Shown in pieces: positions 28,942-63,207 of a DNA stretch of 64,000 nucleotides; position 1 is the stretch's first letter, and each line of letters begins with the position of its first letter. Position numbers and translations under genes: made by a program. The stretch lies in contig NZ_CP013747.1 of the NCBI RefSeq assembly GCF_001484605.1, positions 3,348,001 through 3,412,000 on the forward strand, read 5' to 3'. Under the pieces are notes generated by a model. That model saw only the letters and a program-made list of their open reading frames with translations, searched no databases and was not told where the DNA came from. This stretch comes from Pseudarthrobacter sulfonivorans. GTDB taxonomy: Bacteria > Actinomycetota > Actinomycetes > Actinomycetales > Micrococcaceae.

Positions 28942-29157
28942 CTATCCGGCCGCCTGCGGGGCCGCCACTTTGATGATCTCCAGGGCGTCAGGATCCAGCA
29001 GCTTCCGCGCGCCGGTCCGCGCGTCCCTGATCCAGATCAGGTCCAGGGAATGTACGACGTCGGTCACCCGGCCCTTGTGGAAGAGCTTGCCGTTGTGCCA
29101 CGCCTCGATGTGGTCGCCGAGTTGGATTCTTACCGTCTGCACCTTGTCAGTGATCAT
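28942..29157 (-). CDS. Small protein of an unnamed beta-rich family (copy 1)
   Basis: A 71-residue protein with no family I can name. Its pattern, GDHIEAWHNGKLFHKGRV then LIWIRDARTGARKLLDP then LEI, is shared by two other proteins in this window (56893 and 57239) and by a pseudogene at 38581. Alternating hydrophobic residues suggest a small beta barrel. ATG 29157 was chosen because homology begins just after it. It lies directly upstream of a GAF-ANTAR gene on the same strand. Confidence 0.75.
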   Translation of the reverse strand: MITDKVQTVRIQLGDHIEAWHNGKLFHKGRVTDVVHSLDLIWIRDARTGARKLLDPDALEIIKVAAPQAAG

Positions 29158-35620: not shown

Positions 35621-38143
35621 ATGAGCACCCAACTTGACCTTCAACGCCTGTCGCTTGCCTCGAACCTCGCGAGCAACGGTGACAGGACTGCCGTTGCCAC
35701 CAGCAATGGTGTCTTGACGTATCGGGAACTGGCCGACCGTGTTGAGGAGCTGGGCCGGCGACTCGGTACCGAACGACGCCTGGTGGCCCTGACGGCCGGT
35801 AACGATGTTGACTCGCTGGTGGGGTACTTGGCGGCCATGGCGGCCGGTCATCCGCTGATCCTCCTGCCCGCGGACAAGCCTGCTGCCCTGGAGTCCCTGG
35901 TCGCGGCCTATGATCCGGACGTTATCCTCAGTTCCGCGAACGGCCGGACAGTACTGGAGGAGCGACGGCCTGGCACCGGACACACCCTGCACCCGGACCT
36001 GGCCCTTCTGTTGAGCACCTCGGGTTCCACCGGGTCACCCAAGCTTGTGCGGCTGTCCTACGACAACCTCCAGGCGAACGCAGAGTCCATCGCGGAATAC
36101 CTCGGCATCACGGAGTACGACCGGGCAATGACCACGCTGCCCATGTCCTACTGCTATGGACTGTCAGTGATCAACAGCCACCTGCTGCGTGGTGCCAGCC
36201 TCGTCCTGACGGATCTGTCCGTGGTGGACCCCTGCTTCTGGGATCTGTTCCGCAGCGAGGGTGCCACATCGTTCGCAGCCGTTCCCTACACCTTCGAGTT
36301 GCTCGAGCGGGTGGGGTTCGCCGCGATGAATCTGCCCACGCTCAGGTATGTGACCCAGGCTGGCGGCAGGCTCGGCCCCGACCTGGTCCGGCGTTACGCC
36401 GGACTGGGCGCAAGGAGCGGCTGGGATCTCTTTGTGATGTACGGCCAGACGGAGGCCACCGCACGCATGGCATACCTCCCTCCCCGGCTGGCAGGTACGT
36501 CGCCGGGCGCCATCGGAATCCCTGTCCCCGGCGGCGCCTTCCGGATAGACCCGGTCCCTGGACTGGAGCATGGGGAGCTGGTCTATTCCGGACCCAACGT
36601 GATGCTGGGTTACGCACAGACGCCGGAGGACCTCGGCCTCGGGCGGACTGTGGATGAACTCCGCACCGGAGACCTGGCACGCCAGACCGCTGACGGACTG
36701 TACGAGGTAGTGGGAAGGCGCAGCCGGTTCGTCAAGATCGTCGGCCTCCGCGTCGACCTTGGACAGGTGGAACGGATCCTTGCCGACCTTGGTATTCAGG
36801 CCGCGAGTGCCGGCACGGACCAGGGACTCGTGGTCGCCGTCGAGGGTGAACACGACCCAGCGCTGCTGGGCAAGCTCCTCGCCCAGGGCATAGGCTTGCC
36901 ACGCGCTGCCCTGGAAGTCCATGCGGTCCGGGAGCTTCCGCGCCTGGCGTCCGGCAAGCTGGACTACCCGGCCGTCCTGGCCCTCGCCAAACCCACAGTT
37001 CAAGACGCGCCTTCCAGCGCGAACTCCGGAGCTAAGCCGCGGGACAGTGTGGTGCGCATCTTTGAAGACACGCTGGAGCTGGAAGACATTTCCGACGACG
37101 ACACGTTCGTTTCGCTGGGCGGGGACTCGCTTTCGTATGTGGCGGCGTCCGTGCGGCTTGAGCAGGCATTGGGACATTTGCCCCCGGATTGGCATATCAC
37201 CCCGGTGGGAGTGCTGGGGGCCCGCTTTGAACAGCCGCGGCCGCGGAAGCGCCGCCCCTTCGCCCGGCTTGAAACCAGCATTGTGCTGCGGGCGGTCTCC
37301 ATTTTCCTGATTGTCAGCACCCATATTGGATTCCTGCACTGGCAGGGTGCGGCCCACGTGCTCATGGCTGTTGCGGGGTTCAACTTCGCACGGTTCCAGC
37401 TGTCCGGGGAACGCATGCCGCGGCTGCGGAAGCAAGTGGCCAGCCTGGCCAGGGTGATCGTCCCCAGCATGGTCTTCATCGGCTTCGCCTACCTGATCAC
37501 CGACAGATACAGCCTGGCGAATATCGTCCTCCTGAACGCCATTATCGGACCCGAAGAGGTGACCACCCGGTCGCATTTCTGGTTCATCGAGGTGCTCGTC
37601 TACGTGTTGGTCAGCATGACGGCCCTGCTCGCCCTGCCCTGGGCAAGCCGTGCCGAAAAGCGCTTCCCGTTCCTTTTTCCGCTCGTGCTGCTCGCCGCCG
37701 GGCTGCTCACCCGCTATGAGCTTTTTGAGCCGGGAATTCCGCACACAACGCCCATATTCTGGCTTTTCGCGCTGGGATGGGCGGTTGCCCGGGCCCGCCA
37801 TATTCTTCAGCGAGGCGCCGTCAGTGTCGTTGCCGCTTTGACCATCCCGGGGTTCTTCGACAACCCCGCCCGTGAACTGACTGTCCTGGCCGGGATACTC
37901 CTGCTTCTCTGGCTGCCCAGCATTCCCGTCCCGGCCGGACTCCGGCGCCTCACCGTTCTGCTGGCCAGCGCGTCCCTGCACATCTATCTGGTGCATTGGC
38001 TGGTCTACCCGCTGCTGGTTGAGCTCAGTCCCGCCCTCGCCGTTGTGGCCTCATTGGCCGCAGGCTCCGCGTACTGGGCACTCTGCAGCCTGGCGCCAAC
38101 GGTCATCGGCCGCACCAAGAGGCGGATCCTATCCGCCCGGTGA
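35621..38143 (+). CDS. Adenylation-carrier-membrane acyltransferase fusion protein
   Basis: An 840-residue three-part protein. Residues 1-450 are an AMP-forming adenylation domain with the phosphate loop LLSTSGSTGSPKLV, YGQTEAT, and an A8-type region ELRTGDLARQ; the last core lysine is in LASGKLDYPAV. Residues ~465-545 are a peptidyl/acyl carrier with Ser503 in LGGDSLSYVAASV for phosphopantetheine. Residues ~560-835 are ten or so membrane helices of an acyltransferase-3 type, starting LRAVSIFLIVSTHIGF with its catalytic-type histidine. It would activate an acid or amino acid, load it and transfer it at the membrane. An iron box upstream suggests induction by iron starvation. Substrate unknown. 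Confidence 0.82.
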   Translation: MSTQLDLQRLSLASNLASNGDRTAVATSNGVLTYRELADRVEELGRRLGTERRLVALTAGNDVDSLVGYLAAMAAGHPLILLPADKPAALESLVAAYDPDVILSSANGRTVLEERRPGTGHTLHPDLALLLSTSGSTGSPKLVRLSYDNLQANAESIAEYLGITEYDRAMTTLPMSYCYGLSVINSHLLRGASLVLTDLSVVDPCFWDLFRSEGATSFAAVPYTFELLERVGFAAMNLPTLRYVTQAGGRLGPDLVRRYAGLGARSGWDLFVMYGQTEATARMAYLPPRLAGTSPGAIGIPVPGGAFRIDPVPGLEHGELVYSGPNVMLGYAQTPEDLGLGRTVDELRTGDLARQTADGLYEVVGRRSRFVKIVGLRVDLGQVERILADLGIQAASAGTDQGLVVAVEGEHDPALLGKLLAQGIGLPRAALEVHAVRELPRLASGKLDYPAVLALAKPTVQDAPSSANSGAKPRDSVVRIFEDTLELEDISDDDTFVSLGGDSLSYVAASVRLEQALGHLPPDWHITPVGVLGARFEQPRPRKRRPFARLETSIVLRAVSIFLIVSTHIGFLHWQGAAHVLMAVAGFNFARFQLSGERMPRLRKQVASLARVIVPSMVFIGFAYLITDRYSLANIVLLNAIIGPEEVTTRSHFWFIEVLVYVLVSMTALLALPWASRAEKRFPFLFPLVLLAAGLLTRYELFEPGIPHTTPIFWLFALGWAVARARHILQRGAVSVVAALTIPGFFDNPARELTVLAGILLLLWLPSIPVPAGLRRLTVLLASASLHIYLVHWLVYPLLVELSPALAVVASLAAGSAYWALCSLAPTVIGRTKRRILSAR

Positions 38144-43011: not shown

Positions 43012-43959
43012 GTGACGTCCTTTATCCTCCGTAGGGCGGGCATGGGAGCCGTACTGGTCTTCCTCGTCCTGACGCTGATCTTCTCAGCCATCCGGCTGAT
43101 TCCCGGGGACCCGGTCGAGCTGTTGCTGTCCAGCGGCAATACGAGTGCGAGTCCTGAAGTAGTGGAGCAAATGCGCGAGCAGTTGGGCCTGAACGGTTCA
43201 CTGCCTGTCCAATACTGGAACTTCCTGACAGGAATCCTCACTGGGGATCTGGGCGAATCCATCCGGACCGGAGACGCCGTATCCGAATCCATTGCACAGC
43301 GCCTACCCCGGACACTCGAGCTGGTTATATTTGCCACAGTTATCTCCATGCTCGTTGGAATTCCACTGGGAGCATGGGCTGCCGCCAGGGGCGGTTTCGT
43401 TGACAGCGCTGCAACCGTCCTGACGAGCCTGGGAGTGGCCCTTCCGGTCTACGTCCTCGGCACGCTTCTGATCCTCGTCTTCTCCCTGACACTGGGCTGG
43501 CTGCCCGCCGGCGGGTTCACGACCTGGCAGCAGAATCCGGGCAGGCATTTCCAGCTGCTCATACTGCCAGCCATCGCACTGTCGCTAGGGTTCACGGCTA
43601 TCATCGCCCGAATGACCCGGTCTGCGGTCCTTGAAACCATGGGCCAGGACTGGGTCAGGACAGCCACAGCCTTCGGGCACGGCCCCCTGAAAGTTTTCCG
43701 TCGCCACGTGCTCCGAAACTCGCTGACGCCGGTGACCACCGTCATCGGCCTGGGCTTCGGCACGCTCCTTGGATCCACCGTCCTGGTAGAGCGCGTCTTC
43801 AACTATCCCGGCCTCAGCAGCCTTCTCGTTGAATCCGTCTCGAACCGTGACTATGCCGTAGTTCAGGGGATCGTGATCATCATCGCGTTGTTGTTCATTC
43901 TCATCAACATTGTGGTTGACATCGTCTATGGCCTCCTGGACCCGAGAGTGAGGCAGTAA
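43012..43959 (+). CDS. ABC transporter permease, DppB type
   Basis: A 315-residue inner-membrane subunit with six helices. The first helix starts at FILRRAGMGAVLVFLVLTLIFS, the long periplasmic loop holds DPVELLLSSGN, and the coupling motif is RTATAFGHGPLKVFRRHVLRNSL (about residue 222). GTG 43012 is preceded by TAGGAGCC. The stop overlaps the next ATG by one base. Confidence 0.92.
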   Translation: MTSFILRRAGMGAVLVFLVLTLIFSAIRLIPGDPVELLLSSGNTSASPEVVEQMREQLGLNGSLPVQYWNFLTGILTGDLGESIRTGDAVSESIAQRLPRTLELVIFATVISMLVGIPLGAWAAARGGFVDSAATVLTSLGVALPVYVLGTLLILVFSLTLGWLPAGGFTTWQQNPGRHFQLLILPAIALSLGFTAIIARMTRSAVLETMGQDWVRTATAFGHGPLKVFRRHVLRNSLTPVTTVIGLGFGTLLGSTVLVERVFNYPGLSSLLVESVSNRDYAVVQGIVIIIALLFILINIVVDIVYGLLDPRVRQ

Positions 43960-48311: not shown

Positions 48312-49721
48312 TCAGAGTCGGGGCAGTGGAAGCTGATACAGCCAGGGCGTGAGGATGGTGCGGGCGTCGAATCCCGGGACTGCACCGCAGATCCGGTCGG
48401 CGGTGGCGAACAGGTCGGGGGTGGTGACGGATCCGTGGCGGTGTTCGTCGGTCCAGGCTCTGAGGAGCCTGAAGAACAGGGCGTCGCCGGCGGCTCTGCG
48501 TAGGGCGTGGACGGCGAGGGCGCCGCGTGTGTAGACCCGGTCATCGAACATGTTGGCCGGGCCCGGGTCGCCCACGGCGAGGTCCTGGGCGTTGACGGAC
48601 AGTGCACGCCATGCAGCCTTGGCCTGGGTTGGTGCGGTGGAGTTTCCCGAGGCTTCTGACCAGAGCCATTCGGCGTAGCAGGCGAATCCTTCGTGGAGCC
48701 AGATATCGGACCAGGTGGCGGCGGTGAGTGAGTTTCCGAACCATTGGTGGGCCAGTTCGTGCGCTATGAGGCGCTGGGATTCCCAGCCCTGGTTGAGGTG
48801 GTTGGGTCCGAAGACGGACAGGGACTGGGCTTCGATCGGCATTTCTAGTCCGTCGGCGGGGACCACGACGGTGTATGTGGCGAAGGGGTACGGTCCGAAA
48901 CAGGTTTGGAAAGTGTCCATCATCTGCCCTTGGCGAGCCAGGGCGGTCCGGGCTTTCGTCATCAGGATTTGCGGTGCTGCCAGGAACTGGGGGACCGGAC
49001 GCGGCCCGTCGGGGCGGGCTGCCCGGTGGGCAGGGGGATGTGTGTGGAAGGTCAGGGGCTGGAGGTCGTAGCGGCCGATCTGGACGGTGGCAAGGTAACA
49101 TGCCATGGGTTCTGGCTGTTCGAAGACCCAGGTTTCGCGGCTGCCGTTGGCGTGGCGTGAAACCGGGACGCCGTTGCAGATGACCCGATAGTTGGCGTCG
49201 GTGGTGATCGTGTAGCCGTAGCTGGCTTTCTGGCCCGGGTGATCGTTGCAGGGAAACCATGTGGGGGCGCCGGTAGGTTGTCCGGCGACCAGGACCCCGT
49301 CGGTGAGTTCTTCCCAGCCGACTGCGCCCCAGATGCCGCGCAACGGCGCCGGGGTGCCGCCGTAGCGGACGTCGAGGCTGAAGCCGCTGCCGGCCGGCTG
49401 GGGCCGGTTTGGTGTGATGATCAGCTGGTTGCCGCGTTGAATGAACCGTGACCGTTTCCCGTCCAGCTGAAGCCTCAGCACGCGCAGCCCGGCAAGGTTC
49501 AATGTGATCGTGGTAAGTGCTGTGGAGGCCCGGGCCGTGATGGCGGCGTGGCCGGCGAGCCGGTTGGTGATGACCTGGTAATCCAGGTACAGCTCATAGC
49601 GGGAGACCTGGTAGCCGACGCTTCCGTGCCCGGGAGTGTAGGAGTCCGCAGCCACGAGATCTGCGGTGGCAGGCCGGGTCCGGATTCGTTCCCCGGCCGC
49701 GGGCTGGCGGTCGGCGTTCAT
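48312..49721 (-). CDS. M1-family zinc aminopeptidase, candidate polycation-degrading enzyme
   Basis: A 469-residue M1 metallopeptidase. Zinc ligands are His321, His325 (HELAH) and the downstream Glu in WLHEGFACYAEWLW; the exopeptidase loop is GLEMPIEAQS, the M1 GxMEN equivalent. No signal peptide is seen. Its ATG overlaps the stop of the poly-lysine-synthetase-like gene by four bases, so the two are coupled. Epsilon-poly-lysine-degrading enzymes (Pld) of Streptomyces are M1-type aminopeptidases encoded next to pls, so this one may trim or protect against the polymer. Family is certain, substrate inferred. Confidence 0.85.
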   Translation of the reverse strand: MNADRQPAAGERIRTRPATADLVAADSYTPGHGSVGYQVSRYELYLDYQVITNRLAGHAAITARASTALTTITLNLAGLRVLRLQLDGKRSRFIQRGNQLIITPNRPQPAGSGFSLDVRYGGTPAPLRGIWGAVGWEELTDGVLVAGQPTGAPTWFPCNDHPGQKASYGYTITTDANYRVICNGVPVSRHANGSRETWVFEQPEPMACYLATVQIGRYDLQPLTFHTHPPAHRAARPDGPRPVPQFLAAPQILMTKARTALARQGQMMDTFQTCFGPYPFATYTVVVPADGLEMPIEAQSLSVFGPNHLNQGWESQRLIAHELAHQWFGNSLTAATWSDIWLHEGFACYAEWLWSEASGNSTAPTQAKAAWRALSVNAQDLAVGDPGPANMFDDRVYTRGALAVHALRRAAGDALFFRLLRAWTDEHRHGSVTTPDLFATADRICGAVPGFDARTILTPWLYQLPLPRL

Positions 49722-52700
49722 GGCTCCCGGGCTTCCCGGGCAGGAACCGTGGCCGACGACGTGTCCGGCGGGTTGGTCCAGGGGCTGACGGGGTTGCCGA
49801 TCCAGTAACTGCCCGCAGGGACCGTTTCACCGCGCATGACCAGGGACGCGGGTCCGACGGTGCCCCCGGCACCGATCCGGGCGGCGGGGAGGATGACGCC
49901 GTGCGGGCCCATGGTCGCCCCTGCGTCAAGGGAGACGGTGTCGATACTCATGACCCGGTCATGGAAGAGGTGGGTCTGGACGACGCAGCCGCGGTTGACG
50001 GTGGAGCTCGGGCCGAGCGTGACGAGGTCCGCTTCGGGGAGCCAGTAGCTTTCGCACCAGGCGCCGGATCCGATGCGGGCGCCGAGGGCGCGCAGCCACC
50101 ACACCAGGGCCGGGGTTCCGGCCGCGGCGCGGGCAAACCACGGGGCAGTGACCATTTCGATGAACGTGTCCACCACCTCGTTGCGCCAGATGAACGAACT
50201 CCATAACGGGTGTTCACCAGGACGGATCCTGCCCACGAGCAGCCATTTGGCGGCGACGGAGCTCCCCGCTGCCACGGCACCGGCGGCCAAAACCACCACC
50301 GTACCGAGCAGCGCCGCGACGACGTAGCCGCCTCGGGCAGCCAAAAGGTCAAGAACGGTCAGGACCGCGGCGGCGATCGTGGCGGTCAGGATCACTGGGA
50401 CGCCGCGTCCTAGTTCCCAGCAGGACCGGTAAACCTTCAACCTCAGCGGAGGGTTGAAGGTCAGGCTCTGATCCATGTCCATCCGTGCCCTGCGCAGCCG
50501 GACCGGCGGGCTGCCCAGCCAGGAGGTCCCGGACTTGGCCTTGGCCGGTGTCGCGGAAAGGACAGCGATGAGGGAGTTCTTCGGGACGCTGCGCCCCGCC
50601 CCGGTCATCCCGGAATTACCCAGGAACGCCCGTTTCCCGATTTTGGCCCGGCCTATGCTCATCCATCCGCCGCCGAGTTCGTAGGAGGCGATCATGGTGT
50701 CATCGGACAGGAACGCCCCGTCTCCGACCGTGGTCATCGACGGCAGCAACAGCACTGTGGACGCTTCGACGTTCTTGCCCACCGTGGCTCCGAGGAGCCG
50801 CAGCCAGACGGGGGTGAACAGGCTCGCGTAGAGCGGAAAGAGGAGGTCCCTGGCAAGGTCCAGGAGGCGTTCGGTGGCCCAGACCCGCCAGCCGGTAAGG
50901 CTGCGGACCCGGTAGTGGCCAGGTGCCAGGCCCAGTCCGAGGAGTCGGACGATGGCGGCGATCAGGATCATGTTGGAGGCGAACCAGATGACCGCCGCCA
51001 CCGGGACCGCCCACAGCAGCACGGGCCAGGAGGACGAGAGTGAGTCCTGGCCGCGGACTGCGGCGATCACTACCAGCGCTCCCGCGGCTGCCGAAACGTA
51101 AGGGATGGTGGCAAGTACCGCGGAGGCCATCGCGTAGGCGGGAAACCAGATCATTGCTGTTACCCCGGACGGGGGAGGGGCGGGCCGGTGCTGCTGTGCT
51201 TTGCCGAGGCGCTGTGCCGGCGAGCCGGCGAAACGCTGGTTGGCCTTCACTTTGCCCAGTACCGCAGAACCCGGGGCGATTTCGGCGCCGGCGCCGATCT
51301 TTGTGCCGGCCATCAGGGTGCTGCGTGAACCTACGGTGGCGCCCGGACCTACCCGGATGTGTCCGATGTGCACCAGGTCCCCGTCGATCCACCATCCCGA
51401 AAGGTCCACTTCGGGTTCGATGGAGCAGCCCGTGCCCAGGCTCAGCATCCCGGTCACGGGCGGGACGGAATGCAGGTCCACGTCCTTGCCGATCTTCGCC
51501 CCGAGGGCCCGTGCATAGTAGGGTACCCAGGGTGCTCCGGCGAGGCTTACCGCGCCGGAGAGGTCCGAGATCTGTTCGGCCAGCCACAATCGCAGGTGCA
51601 CGTTCCCGGAGCGTGGATAGCTGCCTGGAGTGACGGCGCGGAGCAGGAGCCGGGCGGCGGCGGCAGAGATCGCCATTCGTCCCCACGGGCTGACGAAAAC
51701 TGCCCAGGAAGCCAGCACCCACCACCAGGACACAGCGGGGGCCAGCCGTAGGATCCCGGTGGACGCGAGGACGTTGTTGATGGCCATCAGGTACGTCAGC
51801 CACCGCATGGACACCAGAAGGTGCAGCGGGATCCCGGCAAGGAGTTGGAAAAGCTGTGACGTTATCGCTGGGGGCTTCACGGTGCGCACCTGGGAGGCGG
51901 ACGCTTCGCTGCCGCCGTCAGGGGAGGATAGGCGGGCCAGTTCGATCAGTGCGCCCAGACGTGGGCGGTCGTAGATGTCCGCGACCGTGATGGTGGGGTA
52001 GCGCACGCGCAGGGCCGAGACCAGCCTGGCCGCGGCCAGGCTGCCTCCGCCGTGGGCGAAGAAGTCTGCGTCCACGCCCTCAGGGGCGGCGCCCAGGACA
52101 TCGGTCCATTGATCCGCGATCCATCCGGAGCGGTCGTCCAGGTCCAGGCCTGGAGTTGATCCTCCCGCGGGTTGTGCTTCCAGCGGCCACGGCAGGGCAT
52201 TCCGGTCGACCTTGCCGCTGGTCTTGACTGGGAGGGAATCCACGCCGGCCAGCAGGGGGATCAGTGCTGCCGACAGCCTGTCGGCCAGCAGTTGCCGCGC
52301 CGCGGACAGGTCCGTGGCGGTGCCTGGTGCCGGCACCAGGTAGCCGACAAGGATTTGGTTGCCTGCTGCTGTGGTTTGCACGGCGGCCGCAGCCGAGTGG
52401 ATGCCCGGCAGGGACTGGAGGGCGGCGTCGATTTCTCCGAGTTCGATCCGGCGGCCGCCGAGTTTGACCTGTTCGTCGGCGCGTCCGACAAAGATGAGGC
52501 CGTCAGGTTCGTAGCGGACCAGGTCCCCGCTGCGGTATGCCCGGTCCCAGCCGAGGGTATCCATGGGCGCGTACTTTTCCGCGTCCTTGGCGGGGTCCAG
52601 GTACCTTGCCAGGCCCACGCCGCCGATGATCAGTTCGCCGGTCCCGCCCTCTGCCACCGGGATTCCTGCCGGGTCGACGACGGCCAGGTCCCAGCCGTCC

Positions 52701-53653
52701 AGGGGAAGTCCGATTCGCACCGGGCCAGTCCCGTCCATCCGCGCCGCGGACGCTACCACTGTTGCTTCGGTCGGGCCGTAGGTGTTCCATACCTCGCGTT
52801 CCTCCACCGCGAGACGGGCTGCGAGTTCCGGTGGGCAGGCTTCGCCGCCGAAGATCAGGAGCCGCACCGCCTCGAGGGATTCGGCGGGCCAGAGCCCTGC
52901 GAGGGTGGGGACCGTGGAGACGACGGTGATGCCGTTGGTGATCAGCCAAGGGCCCAGATCCATCCCGGTCCTGACCAGGGACCGTGGAGCCGGAACCAGG
53001 CAGGCGCCGTTGCGCCAGGCCAGCCACATTTCCTCGCAGGAAGCATCAAATGCCACGGACAGCCCGGCCAGGACCCGGTCCGAGGTCCCAATCGGCTCCG
53101 CTTGCAGGAACAGGCGCGCTTCGGCGTCGACAAACGCCGCGGCGGAGCAGTGTGTGACTGCCACACCTTTCGGGGTGCCGGTGGATCCGGAGGTGAAGAT
53201 CACCCACGCATCGTCCTCGGGTGTGGGTTGCCGGGGTGCGGGGAAGGGCCGGACCCGGTCCGGGGAGGTGATGATCTCACCTGCCCGCACGATCCCAGCA
53301 ACACCGGCCTCTTCGAAGACCAGCCGTGCCCGCTCGTCCGGGTCATCGGCGTCGACCGGGACATAGGCCGCGCCCACGTGCAGGATGGCCAGGATCGCCA
53401 GGTACAGCTCGTTTGTCCCCGAGGGGATCCGCACGCCGACCTTGTCGCCGGCGCCAATTCCGGCCTGGTGCAAGCGGCGGGCATAGACCTTCACATGGCG
53501 GAGCAGCTCCGCGTAACTGAGCGAGGTGCGCCCGTCGTCCAAAGCTGAGGAATCCGGAAACCCTTCAGCGCTTTCCAGAAGAATCTGCACCAGGGTGCGC
53601 GGCGGGGCGGCGTCAGCAGCGCGGGCCAGCTGCGGGCGGTGAGCTGTCACCAT
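49718..53653 (-). CDS. Epsilon-poly-L-lysine synthetase-like NRPS (Pls family)
   Basis: A 1311-residue single-module NRPS with the layout of Streptomyces Pls (~1319 residues). Residues ~30-480 are an amino-acid adenylation domain (VIFTSGSTGTPKGVAVTH, NTYGPTEATV, and VKTSGKVDRNALP as the last core lysine). Residues ~505-575 are a carrier with Ser538 in AHGGGSLAAARL. Then come six membrane helices that frame three tandem soluble domains with left-handed beta-helix repeats, as in Pls, which link monomers outside the thioesterase logic. Product: probably a homopolymer of lysine, diaminobutyrate or diaminopropionate. Substrate specificity cannot be set by eye. Confidence 0.88.
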   Translation of the reverse strand: MVTAHRPQLARAADAAPPRTLVQILLESAEGFPDSSALDDGRTSLSYAELLRHVKVYARRLHQAGIGAGDKVGVRIPSGTNELYLAILAILHVGAAYVPVDADDPDERARLVFEEAGVAGIVRAGEIITSPDRVRPFPAPRQPTPEDDAWVIFTSGSTGTPKGVAVTHCSAAAFVDAEARLFLQAEPIGTSDRVLAGLSVAFDASCEEMWLAWRNGACLVPAPRSLVRTGMDLGPWLITNGITVVSTVPTLAGLWPAESLEAVRLLIFGGEACPPELAARLAVEEREVWNTYGPTEATVVASAARMDGTGPVRIGLPLDGWDLAVVDPAGIPVAEGGTGELIIGGVGLARYLDPAKDAEKYAPMDTLGWDRAYRSGDLVRYEPDGLIFVGRADEQVKLGGRRIELGEIDAALQSLPGIHSAAAAVQTTAAGNQILVGYLVPAPGTATDLSAARQLLADRLSAALIPLLAGVDSLPVKTSGKVDRNALPWPLEAQPAGGSTPGLDLDDRSGWIADQWTDVLGAAPEGVDADFFAHGGGSLAAARLVSALRVRYPTITVADIYDRPRLGALIELARLSSPDGGSEASASQVRTVKPPAITSQLFQLLAGIPLHLLVSMRWLTYLMAINNVLASTGILRLAPAVSWWWVLASWAVFVSPWGRMAISAAAARLLLRAVTPGSYPRSGNVHLRLWLAEQISDLSGAVSLAGAPWVPYYARALGAKIGKDVDLHSVPPVTGMLSLGTGCSIEPEVDLSGWWIDGDLVHIGHIRVGPGATVGSRSTLMAGTKIGAGAEIAPGSAVLGKVKANQRFAGSPAQRLGKAQQHRPAPPPSGVTAMIWFPAYAMASAVLATIPYVSAAAGALVVIAAVRGQDSLSSSWPVLLWAVPVAAVIWFASNMILIAAIVRLLGLGLAPGHYRVRSLTGWRVWATERLLDLARDLLFPLYASLFTPVWLRLLGATVGKNVEASTVLLLPSMTTVGDGAFLSDDTMIASYELGGGWMSIGRAKIGKRAFLGNSGMTGAGRSVPKNSLIAVLSATPAKAKSGTSWLGSPPVRLRRARMDMDQSLTFNPPLRLKVYRSCWELGRGVPVILTATIAAAVLTVLDLLAARGGYVVAALLGTVVVLAAGAVAAGSSVAAKWLLVGRIRPGEHPLWSSFIWRNEVVDTFIEMVTAPWFARAAAGTPALVWWLRALGARIGSGAWCESYWLPEADLVTLGPSSTVNRGCVVQTHLFHDRVMSIDTVSLDAGATMGPHGVILPAARIGAGGTVGPASLVMRGETVPAGSYWIGNPVSPWTNPPDTSSATVPAREAREP

Positions 53654-53766
53654 CCCAGTGTGGCCGAAAAAGGGCCCTGACAGAACGCTCCTGCCCTAAT
53701 CAGTAGCCTCTTCAGCGAAGATTTCTGTTCGTATCAACCCGAACCACCGGGAGTAGTATCGGGGCC

Positions 53767-54276
53767 ATGCGTGACCTGGACGATAGGGAGTTGAGGCGCC
53801 GGCTGGAGTTGCTCGTGCCGTTCTTTCGGGCCCTCGGGTACCGGACTCTTGAAACGTACGCCGCGGCCGGGGTACTCACTACCCTGCCCGATGCTTCCTT
53901 CCCTGTGTCGGACGCCCGCTTCCGCCCAACGGCCGAGGGTTTGACCTGCCATCCGCATGGCCCGGTGTACTTCACTATCACCCGGGCCGGAGAACTGGAG
54001 CTCGGCACTGGCCTCGGAGTGCCTCTCACGGAGGCCATCATCAGGTACGTGCAGCTCGCGCGGGAACAGGATCTGGAGGACGCCGGCGACGAGGAAGGCG
54101 CCACAGAAGAATTCCCCCCGCCGCGTCTCGTTCTCGACACCGAAACGTCCCGGCTTTACATCGTGGCCGTTAGCCGGGCCCATGAACCCAAATCCCGTCC
54201 GAGCTTCATCCCGGTAGAGCAGTACATCCAAGAGCGGGCGCAGCTGTTCGTCGAAGCCTTTCGGGCCGCGCGCTGA
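53767..54276 (+). CDS. Unrecognised soluble protein
   Basis: A 169-residue protein I cannot place in a family. Two mixed alpha/beta halves (MRDLDDRELRRRLELLVPFF...; PPRLVLDTETSRLYIVAVSRAHEPK) are separated by an acidic stretch near 105-120 (EQDLEDAGDEEGATEEF). No signal peptide or membrane segment. Divergent from the pls-like gene (113 bp away) and convergent with the CYTH-CHAD gene (30 bp). Codon use is like its neighbours and the frame is complete, so it is likely real. Confidence 0.65.
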   Translation: MRDLDDRELRRRLELLVPFFRALGYRTLETYAAAGVLTTLPDASFPVSDARFRPTAEGLTCHPHGPVYFTITRAGELELGTGLGVPLTEAIIRYVQLAREQDLEDAGDEEGATEEFPPPRLVLDTETSRLYIVAVSRAHEPKSRPSFIPVEQYIQERAQLFVEAFRAAR

Positions 54277-54305
54277 AGCATCAGCACCGGCATGGGTCGT
54301 CACTT

Positions 54306-55820
54306 CTATAGGGAAGCGGCCGGGAACTTCTTCCATTGACGGTGGAAACGGGCTTCAGCTTCCACCGCAGCGGCCTGCTCCAGCGCGTGAAGCCGGCCAT
54401 AGGTGAACCCGTTTTCCCCCTGGACGAAGGCCTCGGCTCCGAGCCTGCGCAGCAGGTCCCGGGTGACGACGCTGTCCTGATGGTCGCCCAGGATCTTCTG
54501 GACATCCTGGGCCGCATCCGCGAGCCGGGCGGCCTTCTTGGGACTGATGGGCGTTGCTGCTTCGGCGGCGTAGCGCAGCCGTTTGCCGTCTTTCCTTGCC
54601 TCGTGCAGGGCTGGATGGTCGCTGGTTCCGGCCGGGTTCCGCTTAGCGTCCCGGACTGCAGCACGCAGGCGCTTGACGTCCCGTTTGACCAGCCGCGGGA
54701 TCACTTTGCGGGCCGGTTTGGCCGCAAGCGGTGACCGTGGCGGGCCGGTAAGAACGGTTTCGAGGGAGTCGAGGAGGCGGAAGTAGCGCGGCCCGTTCAG
54801 TGTTTTCAGTACTTTCGTGTGGGCTTTTTGGTAGTCGGCGTCGAGTTCAAGATCGATGCGGCGGGCGACGGGGCCCATAACAAGCTCACCCGGTTCTTCG
54901 GCGACCATGTCCTTGAGGCGGGCGTGCATGACTTCGGCGTCGCGGGCCGCACCGAGCACGCCGGCGAGCCACTTCAGTTCATCCCGGAGGGCGCCTACTA
55001 AGTTGGCGTCACCCAGCAGTTTCCTGAACGTCGCCAGCACCGAGCGCATTCTCCGCGTGGCTACCCGCATCTTATGGACCGCGTCCGGGGCGTCAAGCCG
55101 GACGAGGGGGTCCTGGGCCTTGAGCTCCCGGACTTGTTCGCTGAGATAGGCGAGCAGGACATCCGCCGCTGGGCTCTTGGGTTTCGGGTTCGGTGCTGAG
55201 TTCGTGGAGGCCTGCGGATCCCGGCCGAGCGCGCGGGCCAGCTTGGATGGATGGGCGGAGAGCCGGACGCCCGCAGCTGCCAGCCGGTCCTGAGCGGCAT
55301 CAAGCAGGTCCCGGGAGCCCTCGACGAGTTCGATCTCCCACTCACGCCAGCGCCGGAGAGCCCGTTTGGGCGTGAGGGTCTCGGCTTCCACGGTGTCATC
55401 ACTGACACTGGCGAGAACCTCGCCCTTCTTGTTCAGGAGACGGTGCACGATGCGTCGGGTCTTCAGCCTCGCGACCGGGTTCAGGGCCCGCCCTCTCGTG
55501 TGCACGCGCACGAGCTTCAGGAGTGCTTCGGGAACCCCATCGTCGACCTTGCCAAGCGGTTCGTGGAATTCCCTCCGCTCGTCCGCGGCGGAGGGGAGCT
55601 TCAGGTGCCATCCTGCGTCCTCGCCGCCGGTTCGTCGGCGGAGCGTTACCTGCGCAGATGCCAGGCGCAGGTCCTTGGTATCGAAGTAGTCGGCCTCCAG
55701 CCGGTGCTCCCCGGGCTTGTCCGTGCGGTCAACCCCGGGCAGGTCCTGGAATGAGGGAAGGAGGACCGAGTCCTCGACATCAAACTTCCGTTCGATCTCA
55801 ACAACCGGTGTTGTGGCCAT
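54306..55820 (-). CDS. CYTH and CHAD domain protein (polyphosphate/triphosphate binding)
   Basis: A 504-residue fusion. The CYTH domain (residues 1-205) begins with the diagnostic EIERKF and has the tunnel-type charged strands (VTLRRRTGG, WHLKLPS). The CHAD domain (residues ~220-500) is helical with many conserved His and Arg/Lys (HKMRVATRRMRSVLATF, HEARKDGKRLRYAAEA). CHAD domains bind inorganic polyphosphate, and CYTH enzymes act on triphosphates. Neighbouring ppk2 and the polycation synthetase make a polyphosphate link attractive. The role is inferred. Confidence 0.93.
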   Translation of the reverse strand: MATTPVVEIERKFDVEDSVLLPSFQDLPGVDRTDKPGEHRLEADYFDTKDLRLASAQVTLRRRTGGEDAGWHLKLPSAADERREFHEPLGKVDDGVPEALLKLVRVHTRGRALNPVARLKTRRIVHRLLNKKGEVLASVSDDTVEAETLTPKRALRRWREWEIELVEGSRDLLDAAQDRLAAAGVRLSAHPSKLARALGRDPQASTNSAPNPKPKSPAADVLLAYLSEQVRELKAQDPLVRLDAPDAVHKMRVATRRMRSVLATFRKLLGDANLVGALRDELKWLAGVLGAARDAEVMHARLKDMVAEEPGELVMGPVARRIDLELDADYQKAHTKVLKTLNGPRYFRLLDSLETVLTGPPRSPLAAKPARKVIPRLVKRDVKRLRAAVRDAKRNPAGTSDHPALHEARKDGKRLRYAAEAATPISPKKAARLADAAQDVQKILGDHQDSVVTRDLLRRLGAEAFVQGENGFTYGRLHALEQAAAVEAEARFHRQWKKFPAASL

Positions 55821-55933
55821 AGCAAATTTTACGTCCCCGGCCGCCGGGCACGACAGAAACTGTTATTCCCTCGAGTACGCGGCATTCGCCCTTGCTTGTT
55901 CCACCTGATTTAGCAGCTGCTGCTCCAGCGGGT

Positions 55934-56152
55934 TTATCCGTCAGCAGAGCTGTTCTTGAGGGTACGGTGCAGCCGGGTGCGGGCGCCGTTTTCGACCAGG
56001 GTCGGTACATAGGCACGAATGCGCCCACCATCCAGGCCATGGTATTCCTCGCCGACTATTTCGGTGATTAGCGTACGAGACGCCTCGGGGTAACGGGCCG
56101 CAAGCCGCTCCACAACACGTGTCACGAGATGTTCTTCAGTTTCGTTATCCAC
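55934..56152 (-). CDS. Three-helix-bundle protein (DUF3562-like)
   Basis: A 72-residue helical protein: VVERLAARYPEASRTLITEIVGEEYHGLDGGRIRAYVPTLVE is the typical three-helix dimerisation pattern of these small actinobacterial proteins. No enzyme motif. It follows the CYTH-CHAD start by 113 bp in the same direction and could share a promoter. Function unknown, possibly an adaptor. Confidence 0.75.
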   Translation of the reverse strand: MDNETEEHLVTRVVERLAARYPEASRTLITEIVGEEYHGLDGGRIRAYVPTLVENGARTRLHRTLKNSSADG

Positions 56153-56364
56153 CAGCCCAGTGTGAGTCTGCCCGTTCAGGACGTCAAGAAGATTAGGGAG
56201 GGTCTGGAGGCAAGCAAAAGCCCCGCCGATGGGGGACCGGCAGGGCCTTCGATCTCACGCTACCCGGCGGCGCTGAACACATCGAGTGGAAGAACCGCAG
56301 TCTCAGGCGGGAGCCTGCAACTATGTTGGATTGAAGAACAAGACATGCTCAGTGGATGGCCCGC

Positions 56365-56763
56365 TCAGAGCCGGCGGTCGGACAGCTCGGCGCGGGTCCG
56401 GAGCGCATCGGCGACGAACCAAGCGACTGCACGGACCACTGTCGCGCCGTCCGGGACAATCGGAGGAGCAGAGGCCCGCTGACGCCCTCTTTCAATGGAA
56501 CCCGGTCAGCAGCCTTGAGGTTGTGAGGAAAAAACCGGGCGCGGGTGCGAAGCCCCAGCGGAAGACCGGTTTCCCTTGCCTGACCTGTCCCGGGAGTTGC
56601 TGCACGCTTAGCCGGACGCTGCGTTGCATGACTCGGATGGTGGCGCCATGACGGATGTCTACAGCGATGTTCCGCGATCCTGGAATTCCAGGTTGTGAGA
56701 TTCGCGGCGTCAGTGAGGACGGTCCATACGCTCGAGCTCGTGGGCATGGATGAGCGTCTCCGC
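56365..56763 (-). pseudogene. Decayed SRPBCC (polyketide cyclase-like) gene
   Basis: Several minus-strand frames together read like one SRPBCC protein. ETLIHA is followed, one frame on, by SSSVWTVLTDAANLTTWNS (start at about 56745), then RNIAVDIRHGATIRV and FRWGFAPAPGFFLTTSRLL in another frame, and finally a C-terminal helix VAWFVADALRTRAEL ending at 56365. At least three frame changes are needed, so the gene is dead. Homology is by pattern only. Confidence 0.5.
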
Positions 56764-56892
56764 TCGAGAGGCCTTCCCCCTGGATTCCGCCGCCAACACC
56801 GGCGTTACCGGGCAGCGTCCCGCACGTGGGATCAGGACGTGCGGGGCAATGCTGCTGCTTTTCATCGGACACCGAAAAGTCATTCCACGACC

Positions 56893-57150
56893 ATGACCAG
56901 ATCACCGTCCGTTGTACTCAGTTGCTCGGAGCTTCGCCCCGGCGACCGCATTGAAGCCCGGTACGAGGACAGGCTCCTCTACCGCGGCCGAGTCCTAACA
57001 GTTATCCCCGACCTTGAACTCTTATGGATTGTCGACGCACAGACAGGTACCCGCCAACTCCTTGATCTGGATCAGATGAGGGTGTTGCGCTGCCCCGTGC
57101 GGGCACTACCGGACCTCCCTGGCCCGGAACGACTTCCAAAAGGCGCCTAG
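56893..57150 (+). CDS. Small protein of the unnamed beta-rich family (copy 2)
   Basis: An 85-residue protein with the same pattern as 28942-29157 and 57239-57484: ELRPGDRIEARYEDRLLYRGRV, then LELLWIVDAQTGTRQLLDLD. The conserved points are GDxI, RGRV, [LI][WF]WI-D, TGxR-LLD. The C terminus is Pro/Arg-rich. It is followed by a paralogue 88 bp downstream, a tandem pair, just before ppk2. No known function. Confidence 0.75.
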   Translation: MTRSPSVVLSCSELRPGDRIEARYEDRLLYRGRVLTVIPDLELLWIVDAQTGTRQLLDLDQMRVLRCPVRALPDLPGPERLPKGA

Positions 57151-57238
57151 CGGTCACGACCGAAGACACGCCCCGGACACGTTACGTCAACCTCGACAGC
57201 GCATACTGCGGGCATCAGACATTCAGAGGGGACCCAGC

Positions 57239-57484
57239 ATGACTGCAACGAAAAAGATCGCCATCAGCTCCTGCCTTGAACTAAACCTCGGCGATGAAAT
57301 TATCGCCACCTACAAGGCCGTCCTGGTCCACCGCGGACGCGTCACAGAGCTGGCCCCAGACCACGGACTGTTTTGGATCACCGATGACCTGACCGGAGGC
57401 CGCCGACTCCTGGACATGGCTGAACTGGAGATCTACCGCATCCAGGCCACGCCCAGCGCTACGGCCACGGCCGCGGCGGCTTGA
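57239..57484 (+). CDS. Small protein of the unnamed beta-rich family (copy 3)
   Basis: An 81-residue paralogue of the previous gene, with LNLGDEIIATYKAVLVHRGRV and LFWITDDLTGGRRLLDMAELEIYRI. AGAGGGGACC lies before ATG 57239 as ribosome site. The last ten residues are an Ala/Thr tail. It lies 140 bp upstream of ppk2 on the same strand. Function unknown. Confidence 0.8.
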   Translation: MTATKKIAISSCLELNLGDEIIATYKAVLVHRGRVTELAPDHGLFWITDDLTGGRRLLDMAELEIYRIQATPSATATAAAA

Positions 57485-57624
57485 CCCTCTCACTCACTAT
57501 TCGCGCCCTAGCGACCCGACCTTCCTGGAAGGAACCGTTCAGCACCCGCTGCCCTGAACGGCCTCGTACGGGATTGCCCTGTTAGACTGCGGGCGACACT
57601 TCGCGGCGCCATAGGGAGACCCGG

Positions 57625-58560
57625 ATGGTGGAGGCAGAGCAACCGTGGACCCCCGAGGACCCGTGGTGGGTCAGGGATAATCTTCGCCAAGCCATCGACC
57701 GCCTCGTCGAGCAGGGATACACAGTCCGCGGCGGGCAAGGCGAGGACCCGGAGCTCATCGACCCCGGCGGCTCGGCTGTTGAGACGTGGCGGGAGGACTA
57801 CCCCTACGACGAGCGGATGACCCGCGAGGCCTACGAGGCGGAGAAATACCTCCTGCAGATCGAACTGCTCAAATTCCAGTACTGGGGCCAGGACCGCGGT
57901 TTCAAGAATGTGATCGTTTTCGAGGGCCGCGACGCGGCGGGCAAAGGAGGGACGATCAAGCGCTTCACCGAGCACCTCGATCCCCGCTCCGCCAGGACCG
58001 TCGCGCTGGGCAAACCGTCGGACCGTGAACAGGGCCAGTGGTACTTCCAGCGATACATCCAGCACCTGCCCACGGCAGGTGAAATCGTGATGTTTGATCG
58101 TTCCTGGTACAACCGTGCGAACGTCGAACGCGTCATGGGATTCTGCACCGACGCGGAATACCAGGCCTTCATGACGCAGGCGCCGGTCTTCGAGGAAATG
58201 CTCGTCAACTCCGGGATCCACTTGAATAAGTTTTGGTTCTCCGTGACCCGCCACGAGCAGCGCACCCGCTTCGCCATCCGCCAGATCGACCCCGTCCGGC
58301 GCTGGAAACTCTCGCCCGTGGACCTTGCCTCCTTGGACCGGTGGGAGTCCTACACCGAGGCCAAAGAGCAAACCTTTCTCCGCACCGACACAGATCACGC
58401 ACCCTGGATCACCATCAAATCCAACGACAAGAAGCGCGGACGTATCAACGCCATGCGCTACTTCCTAAATCAGTTCGACTACGACGGCAAGAACACCGCA
58501 GTTGTCCACGACCCCGACCCGCTGATCGTGCGCCGAGGCCGGATAGCCGTCGGAGACTGA
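57625..58560 (+). CDS. ppk2: Polyphosphate kinase 2
   Basis: A 311-residue PPK2-family kinase that moves phosphate between polyphosphate and nucleotides. The Walker A loop is VFEGRDAAGKGGTIKRF (about residues 98-114), the lid region RWKLSPVDLASLDRWESYTEAKE carries the conserved basic residues, and Walker B-like MFDRSWYNRANVERVMGF is typical. Class I versus class II/III substrate choice (ADP or AMP) was not resolved. AGGGAGACC precedes the ATG. It lies near the CYTH-CHAD gene and the polycation synthetase. Confidence 0.95.
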   Translation: MVEAEQPWTPEDPWWVRDNLRQAIDRLVEQGYTVRGGQGEDPELIDPGGSAVETWREDYPYDERMTREAYEAEKYLLQIELLKFQYWGQDRGFKNVIVFEGRDAAGKGGTIKRFTEHLDPRSARTVALGKPSDREQGQWYFQRYIQHLPTAGEIVMFDRSWYNRANVERVMGFCTDAEYQAFMTQAPVFEEMLVNSGIHLNKFWFSVTRHEQRTRFAIRQIDPVRRWKLSPVDLASLDRWESYTEAKEQTFLRTDTDHAPWITIKSNDKKRGRINAMRYFLNQFDYDGKNTAVVHDPDPLIVRRGRIAVGD

Positions 58561-58962: not shown

Positions 58963-59526
58963 ATGGAAACACGCGCTGGCTCATCCGTGCGGACTCCGGC
59001 AGGGACGGCCACAAGGATCGTCCGGGCGGCGGCGGCCCTTGCCTTCTCGGCTGCCCTCGCAGGGGCGGCGGCGCCACCTGCCACCACCGCGGATACCCTG
59101 TCCACTCTCGTGGTGTCTTCAGGTTCGCTTGGCTTCAGTTCAGCCCCCGCGTCAGTCTCGTTCGGTCTGGACGATCCGGGCGCCGCAGCCGCCATGGCCC
59201 TCCAGGGCGTCACGGTGAACGACAACCGCGCCGGCACCGCCGGCTGGAGCGCCTCACTTGCCCTCACCGACTTCACAGGTAATGCGACCGGAGCCGCCCT
59301 TTCCTCCACCGGCGCCACGTACACCCCGACGGCGGCCACGACGACAGGCACCGTAACCGTGACGGCATCCACGGCAACCGATCCGACCACGCCCAGGATT
59401 GTTCAGACCGCCACGGGTGTCTCCGGCAACAACACGGCAACCTGGAACGCAAGCCTGACCGTTCCGGTGCCAAACGATGCCGTGGTGGACACCTACACTG
59501 CAACGCTGACCTACTCCATCTCTTAA
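58963..59526 (+). CDS. Exported Ala/Thr-rich surface protein (WxL-like)
   Basis: A 187-residue protein with a likely signal peptide (about residues 18-45, RIVRAAAALAFSAALAGAAAP). The mature part is a beta-sandwich type rich in Ala, Thr, Ser and Gly, with LQGVTVNDNRAGTAGWSASL, a pattern seen in WxL-type and related surface proteins, and ends in LTYSIS without an LPXTG. It could be shed or held on the wall. The start at 58963 has only a weak ribosome site. Function unknown. Confidence 0.65.
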   Translation: METRAGSSVRTPAGTATRIVRAAAALAFSAALAGAAAPPATTADTLSTLVVSSGSLGFSSAPASVSFGLDDPGAAAAMALQGVTVNDNRAGTAGWSASLALTDFTGNATGAALSSTGATYTPTAATTTGTVTVTASTATDPTTPRIVQTATGVSGNNTATWNASLTVPVPNDAVVDTYTATLTYSIS

Positions 59527-61978: not shown

Positions 61979-63207
61979 ATGGAGCTGACGATGAGCGAAC
62001 GCAGGGCTGTCACGAAGGTTCTGGCCACGGAATACCGCCGTGCTTCCAAGGCCAGGAAGGGCGAGATCCTGGATCAGATCTGCGCGGTGACGGGCTGGCA
62101 CCGCAGTCATGCTCGCAAGGCGCTGGGTCTGGTCCTGAGGATCAGGGTTGTCCGTCCCCGCCCGCCGAGGCCGCTGGTCTATGACAGCTCTGTGATCGAC
62201 GCCCTGCGGTTCTGTTGGGCGGTGCAGGGCACGCCGTGCGGGCGGCTGCTGGCGGCGGCCCTGCCTGATCTGGTTCCGCGTCTGCGCCGGTTCGAGGAGC
62301 TTCAGATCGAGGACGGGACGGCGGCGCTGCTGTTGCGGATAGCGCCGGCGACCATTGACCGCCGGCTCAAGGCGGACCGGGCCAAACTGGATCCGCGGGG
62401 CCGGTCCCATACAAAGCCGGGAACGCTGCTGAAGGACTCCATCCCGATGCGGACCTGGGCCGAATGGGATGATGCTAGACCCGGTTTCGTGGAGATCGAC
62501 CTGGTCGGTCACGAGGGCGGCAATTCCCAGGGCGAGTTCTGTTTCACCCTGGATATCACTGACATCGCGACGGGCTGGACGGAGACCGTATCGGTGCGGA
62601 ACAAGGCGCAGAAGTGGGTGTTCGCCGCGATCAAAGAGGCGACCGCGAAGTTCCCCTTTCCCGTCCTGGGCATCGATTCGGACAACGGGTCCGAGTTCAT
62701 CAACTGGGGGCTTTTTCGCTGGTGCGAGCAGGAGAAACTGACCTTCACCCGGTCCCGGTCAGGGAACAAGAACGACGGCGCCACGTGGAGCAGAAGAACT
62801 GGCACATCGTCCGTCAGACCGTGGGTTACCACCGGTACGACACCCCCGGCGAACTGGATCTGCTGAACCGGATCTGGGAGCTGCAGCGGCTGCTGACCAA
62901 CCACTTCGGCCCCCAGCAAAAACTCGTCTTCAAGGAGCGCAACGGCGCGAAGACCACGAAGAAGTACGACCTACCTGCCACGCCATACCAGCGAGTTCTG
63001 GCCGACAAGGGCACGGTCCGCAAAACGGACAAAACCCGACTCGGCCGAGAAAACCAGCCCCTGAACCCGGCAGCCATTCAACGCCAGATCCAGGCACTCA
63101 CCGCCGAGCTACTGACGCTCACGACCAGCAAACAAGCCGCCAAACCCAAGCCCGCCACGCGCGCACTTCCGAATGATTCCACGAAGACGGCCACGCGCGC
63201 ATCTTGA
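61979..63207 (+). pseudogene. Integrase-core (DDE) transposase, frameshifted
   Basis: The reading frame from ATG 61979 gives an N-terminal HTH region (KGEILDQICAVTGWHRSHARKAL), then DDE-core motifs VEIDLVGHEGG and LGIDSDNGSEF with two catalytic Asp. At about 62781 one base is missing (GGCGCCACGTGGAG), so the frame leaves just before the catalytic Glu. The other frame continues with VEQKNWHIVRQTVGYHRYDT and ends at 63207. The layout resembles the ISNCY-type 'integrase' transposases. No slippery sequence, so this is decay or a sequencing error. Confidence 0.85.
63157..63205 (-). repeat. Right terminal inverted repeat of the insertion sequence
   Basis: ACGCGCGCA at the inner end and ACGCGCGCATCTT at the tip, with AATGATTCC between. 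It overlaps the last codons of the transposase, including its stop. Confidence 0.8.

Follow-up and report, generated by a model that had tools for sequence, protein, structure and literature searches.

A second predicted poly-lysine synthetase-peptidase gene pair in Pseudarthrobacter, and a possible link of pls loci in its relatives to polyphosphate and phosphate starvation

The window, a stretch of 64,000 nucleotides (G000:C1:3348001-3412000), is part of the 5.06-Mb genome of a soil bacterium whose relatives are Arthrobacter, Pseudarthrobacter and other Micrococcaceae. Its minus strand carries a pls gene (49718-53653) for a predicted epsilon-poly-L-lysine synthetase (Pls) of 1311 amino acids with an A-T-transmembrane/acetyltransferase-like architecture, together with a gene (48312-49721) for a 469-residue zinc metallopeptidase of the M1 family, a candidate poly-lysine-degrading enzyme with PF01433 and PF17900 domains. 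Divergent from pls is a plus-strand gene (53767-54276) for a 169-residue protein of unassigned family, which is supported by its codon-usage score and by homologs at the same place in two related loci, L039 (80%) and L040 (72%); a Pfam scan of this protein gave no match. A minus-strand ORF at 53734-54336 was rejected as a gene because the plus-strand frame has the better codon score.

Further neighbors are a CYTH-CHAD protein gene (54306-55820, minus strand; PF05235 CHAD, 213 bits, and PF01928 CYTH, 48.7 bits) and a gene for a three-helix-bundle dimerisation domain protein (about 55937-56152, minus strand; NF046112, 64 bits), whose GTG start at 56152 is our reading. On the plus strand, two paralogous small proteins of 85 and 81 residues (56893-57150 and 57239-57484), both with zero matches to Pfam or NCBIfam families, precede a class-I PPK2 of a stand-alone clade (57625-58560; TIGR03707, 370.2 bits against a cut-off of 301.8). 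Thus all the genes named in the first-pass annotation of this DNA are present, namely the Pls-type NRPS, the M1 peptidase, the CYTH-CHAD protein, PPK2, the small helical protein and the two small proteins, and the overlap it described between pls and the M1 gene is real, at 4 bp (ATGA). These genes do not constitute one operon, because PPK2 and the two small genes lie on the strand opposite to pls, M1 and CHAD. Likewise, the plus-strand 169-residue gene sits between pls and CHAD and diverges from pls, which means that pls and CHAD are not transcribed together.

Other features of the window include a plus-strand gene (35621-38143) for an 840-residue NRPS-like stand-alone enzyme with AMP-binding, carrier and acyltransferase-3 domains, and a third small protein resembling the 56893-57484 pair (28942-29157, minus strand), which adjoins ANTAR/GAF regulators. 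An integrase-core (rve) protein is encoded about 8 kb from pls (61979-62866, plus strand). A weak WxL-like match at 59194-59526 (plus strand; 22.8 bits, below the cut-off) marks a possible surface protein.

Pls scores 693.3 bits against TIGR02353 (the Pls/PosA family; cut-off 423.1) over residues 602-1289, and profile searches also place AMP-binding and PP-binding domains in it. Its best sequence match in the PDB is the epsilon-PL synthase 7wew (E 1.9e-192), and the T-domain motif GGGS is present. Hydropathy analysis places hydrophobic runs near residues 596-614, 842-868, 871-914 and 1081-1140, in which the six transmembrane segments of the family, arranged in three pairs, are not cleanly resolved. 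Pocket positions were assigned through our own alignment to GrsA numbering, and as read in this way the residues are D A E S I G T V V, the same as in 7wew at all nine positions. An alanine at position 2 of the pocket denotes the lysine type, according to the available part of PMC10522769. A different monomer was considered for the window Pls, and the adenylation substrate code that the first-pass annotation had proposed to predict has now been read: as aligned here, the substrate pocket is of the lysine type.

The neighboring peptidase carries the HExxH-x18-E catalytic motif of its family, and an M1 gene lies beside pls in 79 of the 80 named loci of relatives, which supports the pairing of synthetase and degrading enzyme suggested earlier for this DNA. 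Family, motif and gene position together make the M1 protein a candidate peptidase of the PldII type.

The window pair is not the only one in its genome. A second Pls, encoded at 667200-671117 and also followed by an M1 gene, is 73% identical to the window Pls. This copy occupies the canonical place, argB/argC-qor-pls-M1-PPTase-pheT-pheS, where pls usually lies in many Micrococcaceae; the names argB, argC, qor, pheT and pheS are our reading of the sequences. Pls is common in the genus, being encoded in 164 of its 198 genomes. A tree built from 82 Pls proteins places the window Pls within a clade of 12 (support 100) consisting of the window, L039-L041, L042-L046 and L047-L049, and every locus in this clade is without the canonical flanks. 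The protein families, the order of the genes, the position in the tree and the presence of the canonical copy show that the window pls-M1 is a second, non-canonical pair.

The two pairs differ in a further neighbor. In many loci, a 4′-phosphopantetheinyl transferase (PPTase) gene adjoins M1, in the majority of cases in opposite orientation, and among the named loci this is the case for 26 of 34 in Micrococcaceae, 5 of 6 in Microbacteriaceae, the single one in Intrasporangiaceae and none of the 39 others. A Pfam scan placed seven of nine such proteins over a 25-bit cut-off, with those of L240 and L242 below it. A search between M1 and PPK2 for a gene in their own orientation turned up frames that looked spurious, the transferase being encoded on the other strand. 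In L042-L046, it directly follows M1 on the same strand, while in the Paeniglutamicibacter-type loci L081 and L083 it is located upstream of pls and divergent, rather than behind M1. The window and L039-L041 have no PPTase beside pls-M1. Only two PF01648 proteins are present in the genome: one is a 118-residue protein that is AcpS-like by size, and the other, the only Sfp-type transferase of the genome, adjoins the canonical pls-M1. Given this distribution, the PPTase of the canonical locus probably activates the window Pls in trans.

The absence of an adjoining PPTase might also be read as a sign that the window copy of pls-M1 is a silent or decaying remnant. Its upstream region carries no PHO-box-like repeat of the kind described below (the best match has four mismatches), and relatives on the same branch have broken neighbors, one of them (G148) being without M1. 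However, both the pls and M1 frames are intact in the window and all tested catalytic motifs are present, and we regard decay as rather doubtful.

The first-pass annotation had treated the CHAD and PPK2 genes as members of the pls locus and had further proposed that synthetase, peptidase, CHAD, PPK2 and small proteins make, store or condense a polycation-polyphosphate pair. The genes are indeed adjacent in the window, and PPK2s of the window clade also occur near pls in G171, G020 and G148, two of which (G171 and G148) have a CHAD there as well. However, CHAD is found near pls in only 1 of the 80 named loci (L079), and within the nine genomes of the window-pls clade it lies within 8-10 kb of pls only in the window's genome, G171 and G148 (3/9). 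The CHADs of the latter two are 55% and 48% identical to the window CHAD, whereas their Pls proteins are 88-89% identical to that of the window. In the nearest relative (G171; L039), the place that matches the window CHAD retains only a 79-residue C-terminal piece (76% identity), and the PPK2 is in two pieces in different frames, such that its frame looks disrupted. Neither CHAD nor PPK2 occurs within about 8 kb of pls in L042-L046. Moreover, groups of CHAD, PPK2 and small proteins also exist away from pls (L150, L152 and L153), relatives of the 56893-57150 small protein are found in the vicinity of several PPK2 and CHAD genes, and CHAD is common genome-wide, being present in 16 of 19 relatives searched with one to four copies per genome where present. 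A single locus devoted to a polymer pair is thus very improbable. The window CHAD is probably not part of a pls system, and it was rejected as a member on the basis of its rarity at named loci, its remnant in G171 and its frequency elsewhere.

The window PPK2 fares similarly. It is assigned to class I by the DRSWYN motif, in which Asn follows Walker B, a rule for this class given in the available part of PMC8776046. In the PPK2 tree, it falls in a mostly stand-alone clade whose members are usually far from pls, and outside the clade of PPK2s that are linked to pls; its nearest row (L144), at 99% identity, is not near pls, and neither is the 99% identical PPK2 of G042. For this reason it was rejected as a conserved partner of pls. 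The window CHAD and PPK2 look like chance neighbors, a loosely assembled group of polyphosphate genes without a conserved tie to pls.

Comparison with relatives nevertheless brought out a different PPK2, so that of the co-occurrence proposed earlier for pls, CHAD and ppk2, the CHAD and window PPK2 part is not conserved and a second PPK2 clade does lie inside pls loci. This other class-I clade follows pls-M1 in nine other Micrococcaceae genera (g9, g19, g20, g22, g23, g24, g26, g27 and g30). Among the matches listed, 44 of 45 typed genes of the linked clade lie at most 8.5 kb behind pls on the same strand, 1 of 22 other PPK2s with a typed Pls place in the genome is so placed, and the genomes of all 45 have pls. 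This distance count covers 118 typed PPK2 rows out of at least about 150, set against a selection of Pls rows plus three further places, with the frame-shifted G334 PPK2 (L253, linked) left out. In the PPK2 tree, from which identical rows had been removed beforehand as in the other trees, a script labeled 43 of 48 linked-clade rows as linked. One of the remainder, L171 (G288), appears unlinked only because a short locus was used, since in the longer L237 pls is 4.2 kb away; another row of the clade, L234, is a long branch.

Among the 80 named loci, pls has a PPK2 no more than 10 kb away in 7 of the 34 from Micrococcaceae and in 1 of the 46 others, the latter being a distant family member, and most pls loci of the genus Arthrobacter have no PPK2 nearby. 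The named and the other loci overlap (e.g. L060 and L048), and so the locus panels are not independent. Linked-clade genes that are not near pls occur in G027, G107 and G091. Contig C55 of G148 (L041 and L156) holds several PPK2 copies: one belongs to the window clade and two to the linked clade, of which the first contains an internal stop and the second is spread over two frames. The pls gene of this contig has no M1 gene beside it.

The canonical locus belongs to a block of the chromosome that is conserved, and so vertical synteny by itself may account for part of the PPK2 linkage. In the strongest form of this argument, linked PPK2 stays near pls through a slowly changing block without shared function, and argC, qor, pheT and pheS do flank the locus in many genera. 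However, at L047-L049, which occupy a non-canonical place without those flanks, the order is different: the linked ppk2 is directly upstream of pls, whose start is at most about 45 nt after the ppk2 stop, and M1 and PPTase follow. In G148, the linked-clade PPK2 with the internal stop is also beside pls, about 1.1 kb behind it. The occurrence of all 45 typed linked genes in pls-bearing genomes, again among the matches listed, likewise argues against synteny alone, as does the apparent conversion in five genomes of a ppk2 promoter into a pls promoter, as described below. Overall, we consider synteny without function an unlikely account of the linkage.

Of the 48 regions upstream of linked ppk2 genes, 36 contain a GTTCA-N6-GTTCA direct repeat with no more than one mismatch, compared with 0.9% of random stretches, and backwards, scrambled and shifted control patterns reach at most 2 of 47. 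This arrangement resembles the PHO box of Streptomyces coelicolor, which consists of GTTCACC direct repeats of 11 nt (PMC4415409, in the part available). Because the repeat also precedes 10 of 36 PPK2s of the other clade, the association of the box may be with PPK2 and not with pls. The exact form GTTCAY-N5-GTTCAY occurs two to four times per genome in six relatives, while its reversed control occurs 0 times. Of these 19 exact matches, 7 precede pls or ppk2 and 7 precede another or no ORF, the Pfam scan covering loci other than L272 and L273; the remaining 5 stand before phoH, each in a different one of five genomes among the six.

In all five loci L042-L046, an exact repeat is positioned just before pls itself. 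The box is 22 nt away from a GTG, which is also its distance in front of ppk2 (that in G130 was taken by reading the sequence), and the bases that follow the box match the start of ppk2. For example, the first residues encoded at L045, VNAFDSSRHGFNVLDD, are like those of PPK2, VNVLDLSRHGFSVLDT. A search of all five genomes for a linked-clade PPK2 found none. The simplest reading of this pattern is that ppk2 was deleted from a PHO-box - ppk2 - pls unit, leaving the ppk2 promoter before pls, and we regard the pls genes of L042-L046 as putative targets of the Pho regulon. Beyond these loci the case for pls is modest, because 16 of 143 pls genes overall have a box upstream when up to one mismatch is allowed and the control patterns give 0 (backwards), 0 (scrambled), 5 (reverse complement), and 0 and 2 (shifted spacing).

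The window differs from these relatives, given that the repeat is absent upstream of its ppk2 as well as its pls. A scan of the window for the box returned one match with one mismatch, at 43196, which is not above chance. Its genome has three exact matches, one of which is 45 nt before a glycerophosphodiester phosphodiesterase (GDPD) gene, while the other two precede nothing informative.

Because PHO-box-like repeats precede linked ppk2 and pls genes, poly-lysine synthesis in the relatives may be tied to phosphate starvation. The association of poly-lysine with polyphosphate that had been suggested for the window therefore stands in another form: it does not extend to the CHAD and PPK2 of the window, and it finds support in the relatives through the other PPK2 clade inside the pls locus and through the PHO-box-like promoters.

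We favor, as somewhat better than an even prospect, an explanation in which a second pls-M1 copy, CHAD and PPK2 as chance neighbors, and an ancestral PHO-box - ppk2 - pls - M1 unit are combined. In this scheme, Pls would activate L-lysine with ATP, load it onto the carrier domain, which would have been activated in trans by the Sfp-type transferase beside canonical pls, and make epsilon-poly-L-lysine, a natural antimicrobial, at the membrane. The M1 peptidase would then trim the polymer, a role that PldII has in Streptomyces. The window pls clade probably descends from a unit with the order PHO-box - ppk2 - pls - M1, whose PPK2, of class I and of the other clade, would have given the synthetase ATP from polyphosphate under phosphate starvation. 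Three relatives keep this order, five seem to have lost ppk2 and kept its promoter before pls, and the window branch would have lost both.

Some energetic logic can be proposed for such a unit. Pls would spend ATP for each lysine, and class-I PPK2 can make ATP from ADP and polyphosphate, so that under PHO-box control a shortage of phosphate would lead to the use of polyphosphate; both this direction of PPK2 and this use of the polymer are our supposition. One alternative is that linked PPK2 works in the direction of polyphosphate synthesis, in which case it would provide a polyanion partner or a phosphate store rather than ATP. Class-I PPK2s are reversible, and the Corynebacterium glutamicum enzyme prefers synthesis, as stated in the available text of PMC8776046. 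However, the PHO-box promoters point to expression under low phosphate, a condition in which stores are normally consumed, and Pls uses much ATP, with the addition of PPK having raised the yield in Streptomyces albulus (PMC10012588, available portion). Both of these arguments are indirect, and we judge the synthetic direction to be distinctly unlikely.

The reason bacteria make polycationic homopolymers is described as unclear in the accessible part of PMC9606270. We speculate that in Micrococcaceae a PhoP-switched ppk2-pls unit may convert stored polyphosphate into ATP and ATP into a secreted polycation that helps to win phosphate, the window copy being a derivative that has lost the switch. 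We offer this full scheme tentatively, as possible rather than probable. If it is true, the polycation could win phosphate by killing neighbors or by drawing phosphate-rich polyanions to the cell. The presence of ppk2 in the pls locus and of PHO-box-like promoters would provide a testable physiological setting, and phosphate starvation is a growth condition to try for strains in which poly-lysine has not been seen so far.

A Pls with a peptidase neighbor, and Arthrobacter among the carriers of Pls, are already in print (PMC8117764, as far as its available part shows). The pls-pldII locus of S. albulus and its counterpart in Corynebacterium variabile, as described there, share with the window the Pls architecture, the lysine-type pocket and a peptidase gene beside pls. 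The window differs from both in being a second, non-canonical copy with no adjoining phosphopantetheinyl transferase, and the links of the relatives to PPTase, PPK2 and PHO boxes are absent from the available account of those two loci. Within the literature searched, which left most subscription journals outside and in which most sources were available in part, we found no report of a pls locus with a PPTase, a naturally occurring PPK2 or a PHO box. PosA, the delta-poly-L-ornithine synthetase of Acinetobacter baumannii (PMC10522769, part available), resembles Pls in its TIGR02353 family and domain order, but its pocket is D M E H N G T V S K, with Met at position 2 where the window Pls has Ala. 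The PHO boxes of actinobacteria (PMC4415409, same portion) have in common with the elements found here a GTTCA direct repeat with an 11-nt period, which in our case lies before ppk2, phoH and the pls genes of five relatives; the difference is that the elements reported here are PHO-box-like by sequence, and the window pls and ppk2 are without them. Finally, adding polyphosphate kinases to S. albulus raised both epsilon-PL and ATP, as reported in the available text of PMC10012588. That engineered ATP-regeneration system also brings a class-I PPK2 together with Pls, but there the PPK2 was introduced, whereas in the Micrococcaceae relatives it occurs naturally in the pls locus, which may represent a natural counterpart of the same ATP-supply trick.
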